DNA of 64,000 nucleotides, from positions 496,001 through 560,000 of the forward strand of contig NZ_LGKO01000002.1 of assembly GCF_001306145.1 (NCBI RefSeq), in the 5' to 3' direction. Below are positions 7,503 to 41,351 of the stretch, piece after piece (the stretch's first letter is position 1; every line of letters begins with the position of its first letter). Origin of the DNA: Thermanaerothrix daxensis (GTDB lineage Bacteria; Chloroflexota; Anaerolineae; Anaerolineales; Anaerolineaceae). The notes under the pieces were generated by a model that was given only the letters and a program-made list of their open reading frames with translations, made no database searches and was not told the DNA's origin. The translations under genes were made by a program, and so were the position numbers.

Positions 7503-8330
7503 TTAGCCATTGCGGTGCAACTTTCCGGTGCGCTTGGCATAATACTCGGCTTGCTGGAAGATCCACAGCCCCAGGGGAATAAGGAAAGCTCCCATGAGGA
7601 GCGCTGGCCAGATTTGCGGCCAAAGCATGGGCACCGAAGCCCCTTCCAGGACCGCCATCCGTGCGCCACGCAGGACGTAGGTAGCGGGGCTATAAACTGC
7701 TAGCATCCGCAAGAAACCGGGGAGCACCTCTACCGGGTAGTACACGCCGGAGATCAGCAGCATCAGAGCGATGAACACATGGGTCATTTGCGAACCGCGT
7801 TCAGGGAAAAGCAACGGGAGCACAGAGGCCATCACGCCGATACCCACGAAAGAGACGCTGCCTGCCAGAAGCATCACCGTGGCGCTAAACAGGTTGGCGT
7901 GGCTCAGGTCAATATCAAAGACCAGTGAGATTACCACGAGGATGACGCCAGTGAAGATCAGGCTGTAGACCAGCGAGAAGGCGGTTTGACCGGCCATGTG
8001 AGTGAGGCGCCGAATGGGAGCCATCAGGGTGTATTCAATGGTGCCTTCCCAGCGCTCGATGCTGATCAGGTCGGTGATCCAGTAGAAAATGGTGGAAAGG
8101 AAGCGCCACACCAGTGTGCCGATGAGCAAGTAAAGCACAAGGTATTGGGTGTTAACAGACGCTGCGCCGCCGATACGTTCCATTCCCAGACCGATGAACG
8201 AGACGGCCATGCTGTCGGTAATGGAGTACACCAGCCAGACCAGTTCCCAGGACCAGTAACGCTTAATCAGGTTGAAGTTGCGCTCCACAAATGCAAAAGA
8301 AGCACGCATTTGGTAACTCAATGTACTCAT
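7503..8330 (-). CDS. ABC-2 type transporter permease
   Basis: A 275-residue integral membrane protein with about six hydrophobic segments and the ABC-2 pattern, including the late GVYYPVEVLPGFLRMLAVYSPATYVL region typical of drug or polysaccharide exporters of the DrrB/NodJ type. Its ATG overlaps the stop of the ATPase gene (ATGA), so the two subunits are translationally coupled. It probably pairs with that ATPase as a homodimeric exporter. Substrate cannot be deduced. Confidence 0.88.
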   Translation of the reverse strand: MSTLSYQMRASFAFVERNFNLIKRYWSWELVWLVYSITDSMAVSFIGLGMERIGGAASVNTQYLVLYLLIGTLVWRFLSTIFYWITDLISIERWEGTIEYTLMAPIRRLTHMAGQTAFSLVYSLIFTGVILVVISLVFDIDLSHANLFSATVMLLAGSVSFVGIGVMASVLPLLFPERGSQMTHVFIALMLLISGVYYPVEVLPGFLRMLAVYSPATYVLRGARMAVLEGASVPMLWPQIWPALLMGAFLIPLGLWIFQQAEYYAKRTGKLHRNG

Positions 8331-9208
8331 AACGATTCGTCCTCCTCTTCTTCGGGGTTGCGAAGTTGTTTACCGGTCAACTCCAGGAAGACCTCTTCAA
8401 GGGTGGGTTGGCGTTCCGTGGTACCACGGACCCGATTTTTCAACCCTTCGGGTGTATCCAGGGCTACCACCCGTCCACTGTCCATGATGGCAATGCGATC
8501 GCACAGGGTCTCGGCCTCAATCATGTCATGGGTGGTGAGCAATATGGTTGTGCCGTGAACCTCGCGCAGTTCGCGCACTACGGCCTGCACCTCTCGTTTG
8601 GAACGCGGATCCAGCCCTGTGGTCGGCTCATCCAGCAGGAGCAGGCGTGGGCGGGAGAGCAGAGCGCGGGCAATAGCGACCTTTTGCTGCATGCCGCGCG
8701 ACATCTCCTCCATGGGGTGATAGATATCGCGCTCTTTAAGCCCCAACCGCAAGAGAATCTCAACCACTTGCTTGCGGGTCTGTTTAGCCGAAAGGCCGTA
8801 CAGGCGCGCCCCGTACATGAGGTTTTCCATGGGGGAGAGTTTCTTGAAGAACGAAGCCTCCACGCTTACCCGGTTGATCAACTGCTGCACCTGTAAGGGT
8901 TGACGCACGACATCGTAGCCGAAGACACTGATTTTGCCCTTATCCGGGAGCAAGAGGGTGGCAATCAGGCGAATGAGGGTGGACTTTCCACCGCCATTGG
9001 GTCCAAGGATGCCGAAAATCTCCCCTTCTTCGACTGTGAAAGAAACGTGATCAACTGCCACGATGATTTGGACAGAGCCTTGCGGCGAATGGGCGGTGTG
9101 CTTTCCATTGCCGTTATTCGAGCGCGGGTTGAAAAGCGCTTTCCAGAATGGTCCCTCGTTTTTGCCAAATTGTTTATATACATCATTGACAACAACCGCG
9201 TACGACAT
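8327..9208 (-). CDS. ABC transporter ATP-binding protein
   Basis: A 293-residue nucleotide-binding subunit. Walker A is GPNGGGKST, the signature is MSRGMQQKVAIARAL, Walker B is LLLLDEPTTGLD, and the switch His follows in LLTTHDM. The first 50 residues contain an extra loop, FNPRSNNGNGKH, before the canonical start. A strong GGAGG precedes ATG 9208. It forms the exporter with the overlapping permease, and the upstream unknown gene (9257-9685) is likely in the same transcript. Confidence 0.92.
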   Translation of the reverse strand: MSYAVVVNDVYKQFGKNEGPFWKALFNPRSNNGNGKHTAHSPQGSVQIIVAVDHVSFTVEEGEIFGILGPNGGGKSTLIRLIATLLLPDKGKISVFGYDVVRQPLQVQQLINRVSVEASFFKKLSPMENLMYGARLYGLSAKQTRKQVVEILLRLGLKERDIYHPMEEMSRGMQQKVAIARALLSRPRLLLLDEPTTGLDPRSKREVQAVVRELREVHGTTILLTTHDMIEAETLCDRIAIMDSGRVVALDTPEGLKNRVRGTTERQPTLEEVFLELTGKQLRNPEEEEDESL

Positions 9209-9256: not shown

Positions 9257-9685
9257 TCAGGAAAAGAGGAGCACCTGTGCCAGGTTGTGAGCAGGAACAT
9301 ACCACTCAATGTGGGCATGTCGGCGTTGAAAGGCTTGCCAGTCCTCAAGGAGTGCTGTTCTGTCCCGGAAAAAGCGCGGATTGGCGACCAGGATGCGCTG
9401 GATGAAACCGCGAGCCAGATCCTGTTTCATTTGAGTGTAAGCGGGTGGCAACTCGGTTTGCCGAGGGGTGACATCCACATACACAACGGCCAGGTGGTTG
9501 ACCGGCCAGGCGCGCAAGATCAGACACAGGCCCACCATGAGCGCTTGTTTGGCTTCCCGGCTGTAAGGTTGGCGAGGGTGCAATGTGCCGCTTACGTAGA
9601 GCCCAACTCCCTCGGGGAGAGGAAAGCGTGGATCGGCAAAATAATCAATGCGGAATGTATTCAGTTGGGTCAAGATTTCAAACAT
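9257..9685 (-). CDS. Unknown protein behind attenuator-like leader
   Basis: I do not recognise this family. The 142-residue soluble product has mixed alpha/beta character, with a hydrophobic LMVGLCLILRAW segment (about 55-66) followed by VVYVDVTP and a C-terminal IEWYVPAHNLAQVL. No signal peptide or known motif is visible. The start at 9685 is chosen because GGAGG lies seven bases upstream; frames extending further upstream would run through the folded leader. The ABC exporter ATPase begins 48 bases downstream on the same strand, so it may share the transcript and be related to the exporter's job. Confidence 0.6.
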   Translation of the reverse strand: MFEILTQLNTFRIDYFADPRFPLPEGVGLYVSGTLHPRQPYSREAKQALMVGLCLILRAWPVNHLAVVYVDVTPRQTELPPAYTQMKQDLARGFIQRILVANPRFFRDRTALLEDWQAFQRRHAHIEWYVPAHNLAQVLLFS

Positions 9686-9698
9686 CGCGCATGCCTCC

Positions 9699-9734
9699 AA
9701 AAAAGAATCGGCCACCTGGGAACTCCCGTGGCCG
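9699..9734 (-). terminator. Terminator arm of leader attenuator
   Basis: On the minus strand, CGGCCAC-GGGA pairs with TCCC-AG-GTGGCCG, forming an 11-bp stem with an AG bulge, and ATTCTTTTTT follows. The T run abuts the ribosome site of the unknown gene, so the hairpin would stop transcription before that gene. Its left arm can instead pair with an upstream arm (see the leader entry). Confidence 0.8.
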
Positions 9735-9840
9735 TGGGGCACAATAGCGTGTTTAAAGAATTCGGCCACGGGATCGGAGTGCACCCGTGGCCGTTGCTGA
9801 CGCGCTAACCGAATTCTATCCGCAAACAGGCGCACTCCGA
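9709..9840 (-). promoter_or_regulatory. Multi-arm attenuator-like leader RNA
   Basis: Read on the minus strand, the leader has alternating complementary arms. Arm 1 is at 9793-9784 (CGGCCACGGG), arm 2 at 9772-9763 (CCCGTGGCCG), arm 3 at 9734-9725 (same as arm 1) and arm 4 at 9715-9709. Pairing 1:2 (10 bp, 11-nt loop) with 3:4 gives a terminator. Pairing 2:3 (10-11 bp) would prevent it. An earlier arm at 9840-9832 (TCGGAGTGC) is a perfect 9-bp complement of the loop of hairpin 1:2. This is the layout of a transcription attenuator. The signal sensed is not evident. Confidence 0.7.
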
Positions 9841-9914
9841 GAAGGTGCGGCAACCCCGCCGCTGCTCTCGCGCAGGGCGGTGGTGCTGAGGGTGATGCTC
9901 GTGAACTCTACCAT
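9816..9914 (-). CDS. Possible leader peptide (32 aa)
   Basis: A short frame starting at ATG 9914 inside the leader, preceded by AAGGAAAGGA about 11 bases upstream. It encodes a Ser/Thr-rich peptide (SITLSTTAL near residues 6-14) and stops 22 bases before arm 1. Its codons 25-28 cover the first regulatory arm (9840-9832), so translation could decide whether that arm is free to pair. There is no run of a single amino acid as in classic leader peptides. It may not be translated. Confidence 0.35.
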   Translation of the reverse strand: MVEFTSITLSTTALRESSGGVAAPSRSAPVCG

Positions 9915-9952
9915 CTCTGAGTGCGTCCTTTCCTTGAAACTGATTATAATCC

Positions 9953-41278: not shown

Positions 41279-41351
41279 TGCCGAGAGCCAGAATCGAACT
41301 GGCGACACCGCAGTTTTCAGCCGCGTGCTCTACCAACTGAGCTATCTCGGC
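41279..41351 (-). tRNA. tRNA-Phe (anticodon GAA)
   Basis: A 73-nt cloverleaf. The acceptor stem GCCGAGA/TCTCGGC, D arm GCTC-AGTTGGTA-GAGC, anticodon stem CGCGG/CTGCG with loop CTGAAAA, and T arm GCCAG-TTCGAAT-CTGGC all pair. Discriminator is A. The 3' CCA is not encoded. Own promoter and terminator flank it, so it is a single-gene unit. Confidence 0.97.

Follow-up and report, generated by a model that had tools for sequence, protein, structure and literature searches.

The minus strand of the 64,000-nucleotide stretch of Thermanaerothrix daxensis DNA analyzed here (hereafter, the window) carries, ahead of a gene of unknown family (gene X) and an ABC exporter, a leader (9946-9686) that raises the question of what signal it senses. 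In attenuators of the trp type, regions 1 and 2, 2 and 3, and 3 and 4 of the leader pair with each other, and the position of the ribosome acts as the switch. Judged from sequence comparisons, the leader described here is probably a ribosome-mediated transcription attenuator of this type that senses slowed translation in general, with ribosome-targeting antibiotics as the probable cause. Its most likely role is to switch on drug-resistance genes when the ribosome slows on a tiny open reading frame (ORF), although there are no expression data.

All features listed here are on the minus strand. The leader comprises a 32-codon ORF, followed by two terminator-like hairpins in tandem and by the beginning of gene X; a sigma-70-like promoter site lies just upstream (9981-9953; -35 TTGACA, 17 nt, -10 TAGACT). 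In 105 of 126 members of the leader family, a TTGAC and -10-like pair is found in the 110 nt that precede the leader start, compared with a mean of 0.5 (maximum, 2) in resampled sequence. A perfect TATAAT (9948-9943) is found directly downstream of the assigned -10 element, at an unsuitable spacing to TTGACA. The leader ORF (MVEFTSITLSTTALRESSGGVAAPSRSAPVCG; 9914-9816, with the stop codon TAG at 9818-9816) is preceded by a Shine-Dalgarno (SD) sequence, and the stretch from this SD to the ATG, touching the latter, constitutes arm A (region 1; 9928-9914), which is complementary to arm B. Arm B (region 2; 9842-9826), with the conserved sequence CUCGGAGUGCGCCUG, is located within the last codons of the ORF. 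Element C (region 3; 9788-9774), which can form 15 bp with B, consists of the loop and the distal 5' stem of hairpin 1 (9793-9763), whose arms 1 and 2 are CGGCCACGGG (9793-9784) and CCCGTGGCCG (9772-9763), respectively. In hairpin 2 (9734-9709), CGGCCACGGG is found again as arm 3 (9734-9725), arm 4 is imperfect (9720-9709), and the U-rich tail (9707-9699) abuts the GGAGG SD sequence of gene X (9698-9694), so that this SD directly follows the terminator. Gene X (9257-9685, with its ATG at 9685; 142 amino acids) is the first gene past the leader. It is followed by the genes for the ATPase (8327-9208) and the permease (7503-8330) of an ABC-2 exporter, for which the best NCBIfam models are drrA (below its cut-off) and drrB (far below its cut-off), and then, past the permease gene, by genes for a HAD hydrolase and a phosphoesterase.

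After the coordinates were rechecked, the four arms and the U-rich tail named in the original prediction were all found in place on this strand, as was an extra arm (9840-9832), a perfect 9-base complement of the loop at 9782-9774 that lies inside the small ORF. The suggestion that the leader matches no known riboswitch also held: at curated cut-offs, Rfam has no match in the leader, 20 homologous loci are likewise without one, and the only such match within the window is a tRNA at 41279-41351. With a lax threshold, the leader yields a single sub-threshold U7 match on the opposite strand. The folding energy of the leader is -114.3 kcal/mol, compared with a mean of -91.6 for shuffled sequences (z = -4.6), and none of 200 shuffles was as stable.

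Among 61 related genomes, 13, one of them that of the window itself, contain a match to gene X, and the best match in each of these (L001 to L013) is preceded by the B motif in 13 of 13 cases; L014, a weak additional match in one genome, has no B motif upstream. These 13 leaders were reached through the gene X protein and not through B, which nonetheless is exactly TCGGAGTGCGCCT in 9 of them and 1 or 2 bases off in the other 4. Loci beyond these 13 were found by their similarity to B and hairpin 1, so the conservation seen there is partly selected. A degenerate pattern run against 84,980 species genomes returned 63 stretches, of which 53 were kept and 10 discarded as chance matches, at first mainly on the basis of organism and reading frame. 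An SD-led ORF running through the motif is absent from all 10 discarded stretches, and their best hairpins score 9.8 to 15.2, compared with 19.3 to 21.9 in three retained ones. With one exception, L055, the kept stretches all come from records titled with Anaerolineae taxa or only with Chloroflexi or Chloroflexota. L055 is a full leader from "Candidatus Aquidulcis," whose bin has been placed in the class Limnocylindria of the same phylum, and reflects either a transfer or a misbinned contig.

A covariance model built on 57 leaders, whose E values are rough, has matches at E ≤ 0.01 in 156 of 396 sampled Anaerolineae genomes (91 of the 234 better ones) and in 104 of 223 genera. Two to 5 matches are found in 56 of the 156 genomes, and the genome of T. 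daxensis carries one. In a draw of 400 genomes from the phylum, for which the number of genomes outside Anaerolineae is not given, there were 38 matches at E ≤ 0.001, 37 of them in Anaerolineae and one outside (5.8e-4). Many of the sampled genomes are metagenome bins. The analysis covered 157 leaders (57 of A1 and 100 of A2), of which 151 are distinct; L193 to L202 were excluded from all counts. Among the 151, upstream sequence for the ORF test is available for 149 and a usable first downstream gene for 138.

The pairing between B and C, with G-U pairs allowed, extends in the window over 15 bp (9840-9826 with 9788-9774; -28.1 kcal/mol). Across the 151 distinct leaders, duplexes of B with its own C have a mean energy of -17.85 kcal/mol, compared with -15.70 (standard deviation, 0.17) for permuted partners, a value as low as the former being reached in none of 20,000 permutations. 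When partners were exchanged between leaders with different B sequences, the own partner was better in 7,705 cases, equal in 192, and worse in 1,124. At position 4 of B, 115 of 140 leaders show a standard pair with the partner in C (shuffled mean, 78.4; maximum, 97 in 2,000 shuffles; the register was set without this position), with G-C, U-A, C-G, and A-U pairs all represented, as do 60 of 70 within a set of 74 leaders thinned by relatedness (shuffled mean, 44.6; maximum, 56 in 5,000 shuffles). Position 6 pairs with C in 122 of 140 (shuffled mean, 115.1; maximum, 122). Positions 1 and 2 vary without covariation with C (63 of 132, compared with 67.2 in shuffled data, and 41 of 145, compared with 40.4, respectively), so that the helix is supported only inside B. 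Several B positions hardly vary among the 151 leaders. The B:C helix and hairpin 1, which exclude each other, satisfy the expectation of a coevolving antiterminator that overlaps the ORF. Positions 9 to 12 of B (CGCC) are nearly invariant, third codon position included, and pairing with C is retained there in only 70 to 78%. Pairing with A, or another contact, may account for this invariance; because the stretch is more invariant than C pairing requires, B may touch the ribosome or the polymerase directly.

For hairpin 1, all 8 pairs of the stem show changes on both sides, and 99.4% of the cells are paired in 100 sequences, in an alignment that was fitted to that very stem; across the whole modeled structure, cells with changes on both sides number 138, compared with 43 in shuffled data. 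A GC-rich hairpin followed by a T-rich stretch, as in an intrinsic terminator, is predicted ahead of the gene, and termination is inferred. The two hairpins look like separate terminators. In the window, hairpin 1 has a weak U tail (GAATTCTTT), which is stronger in many relatives, and the tail of hairpin 2 is good. Of 146 leaders, 82 yielded a hairpin 2, and none was found in the other 64. Where it is present, the duplex of arm 2 with arm 3 also favors its own partner (-17.15 kcal/mol, compared with -13.17 for permuted ones). Because hairpin 2 is found only in these 82 leaders, the general antiterminator is B:C, assisted by the 2:3 pairing where hairpin 2 exists. The original prediction, which opposed the 1:2 and 3:4 pairings (OFF) to 2:3 (ON), is supported as a scheme, with 2:3 reduced to an auxiliary part. 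It would have been refuted by a lack of covariation in homologues, whereas B:C and the terminator stem both covary, and the proposed attenuator-like architecture recurs in about 150 leaders. Such recurrence with covariation, together with the strong folding of the leader, is more than chance. A small TTGACC...GGTCAA-like hairpin is seen directly after B, around the stop codon, in L030, L036, L056, L083, L123, L130, and L139.

The arms, their alternative pairings, and the promoter- and terminator-like sites are features of the nucleotide sequence itself, and so are the leader ORF, the covariation, and the types of downstream genes. An SD, an ATG, and an open frame through B are present together in 111 of 148 leaders, compared with a mean of 3.2 (maximum, 9) in resampled upstream sequence. 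Under a looser start rule, an SD-led ORF runs through B in 131 of 149 leaders; of the 18 in which it is absent, 15 have an in-frame ATG with no usable SD and 3 have none. The stop codon of the 131 SD-led ORFs is located 16 to 38 nt past the start of B. A short ORF with a ribosome-binding site ahead of the regulated gene, as an attenuator of this kind needs, is therefore in evidence, its translation being an inference. In 29 close and nonindependent pairs, differences in the ORF body are spread about evenly over codon positions 1, 2, and 3 (114, 135, and 142), which indicates that constraint is lacking over most of the leader peptide, as befits a sensor of ribosome position, and provides no independent coding signal. 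The strongly over-represented open frame is also an argument against a ligand-binding riboswitch or a protein-binding leader with an incidental ORF. Although B is extremely conserved, past what its pairing with C accounts for, no conserved stretch besides B and the hairpin was seen in the aligned part, conservation is lacking in the ORF body from A to B, and there is no Rfam match, which leaves such a leader very unlikely.

When the window's leader is folded without a ribosome, arm A, which was not part of the original prediction, is predicted to pair with B. In 131 leaders, the energy of A:B is -14.05 kcal/mol for the own A, -8.10 for shuffled A, and -7.26 for windows taken from the ORF, and the own A beats the shuffled one in 115 of them. 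Permuted A sequences paired with B at -12.73 kcal/mol, and none of 5,000 permutations was as low as the own value; a figure for far-upstream windows was discarded as an artifact, those windows being empty. The motif GCGCAC occurs within arm A in 33 of the 131. In folds of the window's leader, masking of B, as by a ribosome sitting on it, lets hairpin 1 form, whereas masking of the start region or of the middle of the ORF, with the polymerase just past C, yields the 15-bp B:C helix. Counting the structures downstream of the ribosome, the ON state has an energy of -66.2 kcal/mol, compared with -64.6 for the OFF state, a gap of less than 2 kcal/mol. At equilibrium, the full-length leader folds into the OFF state whether the mask covers the early ORF or its middle, A:B re-forming in the latter case; the ON state must therefore be kinetic, that is, a kinetic trap is required.

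The mechanism that we propose on this basis would operate as follows. In the absence of a ribosome, A would pair with B, hairpins 1 and 2 would form, and transcription would end before gene X and the exporter genes. A fast ribosome would read the leader to its end and cover B, so that the hairpins would form and the genes would likewise remain off. A ribosome halted in the first part of the ORF or midway through it, whether drug bound or starved, would leave B exposed as C emerges; B could then capture C before arm 2 is made, blocking hairpin 1, after which arm 2 would pair with arm 3 where hairpin 2 exists and the polymerase would proceed into the exporter genes. Ribosome occupancy, kinetics, induction by drugs, the export function, and the dependence of readthrough on ribosome position are all inferred.

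The nature of the signal is suggested by the genes that follow the leaders. First downstream genes were picked by an automatic longest-ORF rule, which gave no gene for 13 of the 151 leaders, where the available sequence was too short or lacked a long ORF. Most of these genes code for ABC exporters, ABC-F proteins, and GNAT acetyltransferases: among the 138, Pfam finds ABC_tran in 73, ABC_membrane in 42, ABC_tran_Xtn (ABC-F) in 14, and Acetyltransf_1 in 31, these families overlapping. Clusters obtained with Blast include gene X (15 members) and a HAD family (7 members). Two ABC-F examples tested against NCBIfam both pass the ribosomal-protection cut-off; NCBIfam counts on the alignments were swamped by general ABC models and are left out. 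Any role of the GNAT, HAD, or gene X proteins in resistance is no more than a guess. Attenuation by starvation for a specific amino acid, sensed through control codons as in the trp, his, and thr operons, would follow the same 1:2, 2:3, and 3:4 logic, and the leader peptide of the window is indeed rich in Ser and Thr. However, the leaders share no run of a single amino acid, and no amino acid biosynthesis family is among the 25 of 29 Pfam families listed for the 138 first genes, so we give this alternative little credence.

In the 131 SD-led ORFs, B is read in three frames (120, 9, and 2 leaders), and the same RNA is translated as RSAP, SECAC-stop, or LLGVRL, depending on the frame. Arrest peptides of the SecM and RAPP types have a conserved C-terminal peptide that is read in one frame. 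The least probable alternative, in which the conserved leader end PSRSAPV is a RAPP-like arrest peptide whose stalling is the regulated step, can point to the good conservation of RSAP in its 120 leaders but fails the one-frame criterion, as B is kept as RNA in frame 2 (9 SD-led ORFs, 8 of them with the SECAC-stop end, and 7 further leaders whose ATG lacks a usable SD) as well as in frame 3, as its most variable inner base, which covaries with C, occupies the third position of the Arg codon, and as a ribosome stalled at RSAP would cover B and favor the terminator. The arrest at RSAP was the initial reading of these data and was abandoned when B turned up in the other frames; conservation in all three marks B as conserved RNA and not as an arrest peptide. 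Six frame-2 leaders (L035, L059, L063, L072, L090, and L092) share TATACGCAA between B and hairpin 1.

Returning to slowed translation as the signal, a candidate sensor is found in the leader peptides. In the accessible parts of the respective reports, ketolides and, in some cases, macrolides are described to arrest ribosomes at R/K-x-R/K motifs (PMC8298421, PMC6851288, PMC10314930). Such a motif is present in 26 of 106 nonredundant leader peptides (shuffled mean, 10.9; maximum, 21 in 5,000 shuffles) and missing from the other 80. This spacing of 2 stands out, with 27 occurrences compared with 12.2 (standard deviation, 3.2); none of the remaining spacings between 1 and 6 departs from the shuffles by more than about 1.2 standard deviations. 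The motif begins 15 to 13 codons before the Arg codon of B in 22 of the 27 occurrences, with Arg and Lys codons mixed, and, by the inferred geometry, a ribosome stalled there would leave B free. The leader peptide of the window itself lacks this motif (the macrolide +x+ of the ErmDL and MefAL type). The motif, together with the ABC exporters, ABC-F proteins, and acetyltransferases encoded downstream, points to antibiotics that slow the ribosome. At codons -8 to -5 before the Arg codon of B, glycine is strongly enriched in the 106 peptides (22 to 39% per position).

The antibiotic-inducible attenuators known so far are mostly isolated examples in Bacillota that differ in sequence from one to the next. 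The Anaerolineae leaders differ from those of the trp type in having region 1 at the ribosome-binding site and in sharing no control codons. In mechanism, they appear nearest to the bmrB, mefAL/msrDL, and tlrB/yxjB leaders and yet to form a new family that spans a bacterial class. Among the open-literature matches listed, no titles or beginnings of abstracts point to a comparable leader in Chloroflexota, most subscription papers and preprints being outside the scope of that search.

The accessible part of the report on bmrB of Bacillus subtilis describes a leader ORF whose translation controls a terminator ahead of an ABC exporter, as proposed here, the exporter in that case being the multidrug transporter BmrCD; ribosome-targeted antibiotics act as inducers, and a block in translation lowers expression (PMC4191407). 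The bmrB ORF differs in its length of 53 amino acids and in having the terminator inside the coding region, and the same excerpt mentions no arm shared with other operons (PMC4191407), whereas in Anaerolineae one conserved arm is found ahead of several kinds of resistance-type genes. Ribosome-mediated transcription attenuation is likewise described, in the portion of the source that was available, for the streptococcal mefAL/msrDL leaders, which serve an efflux pump and an ABC-F protein, and MefAL bears the +x+ motif (PMC10314930). Their peptides, MTASMRLR and MYLIFM, are very short, and at msrDL the stalled ribosome itself is stated to block the terminator (PMC10314930), whereas in the Anaerolineae leader a stall well upstream would free B for C. 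For tlrB/yxjB of B. subtilis, the text at hand reports transcription attenuation upon stalling of the ribosome by tylosin at an RYR motif, which is C-terminal, and an overlapping antiterminator was not identified by its authors (PMC6851288). In the Anaerolineae leaders, by contrast, R/K-x-R/K usually starts 13 to 15 codons before B, which is predicted to form an antiterminator with C.

The existence of this family has consequences beyond the window. With a single RNA family ahead of them, efflux pumps, ribosome-protection factors, and acetyltransferases can be grouped into one putative translation-stress regulon; the family also provides a search model for candidate resistance genes in the little-studied Anaerolineae, and its roughly 150 natural variants make the logic of the stall position testable. 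That one conserved attenuator family constitutes a class-wide alarm for translation inhibitors, with a regulon that amounts to a ready list of new resistance determinants, has in our estimate an even chance of being correct; if so, this regulon would include ABC exporters, ABC-F proteins, several GNAT groups, HAD and RIO-type proteins, and gene X.

Association with the leader also yields functional guesses for unknown genes, gene X among them. The gene X protein has no match in Pfam, and its best NCBIfam score is 13.8 bits against a cut-off of 173. Its fold is modeled confidently (mean pLDDT, 90.2) as alpha/beta, and a search of the PDB with this fold returned nothing at the 0.001 level, the best match being recombinase-like (E = 0.028) and the next one a SAVED-domain receptor. 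As all these matches are weak, no function was assigned from Pfam, NCBIfam, or the fold. One homologue of gene X (L013) contains two in-frame TGA codons, as if the copy were decaying, and its leader persists with changes in both B and C.
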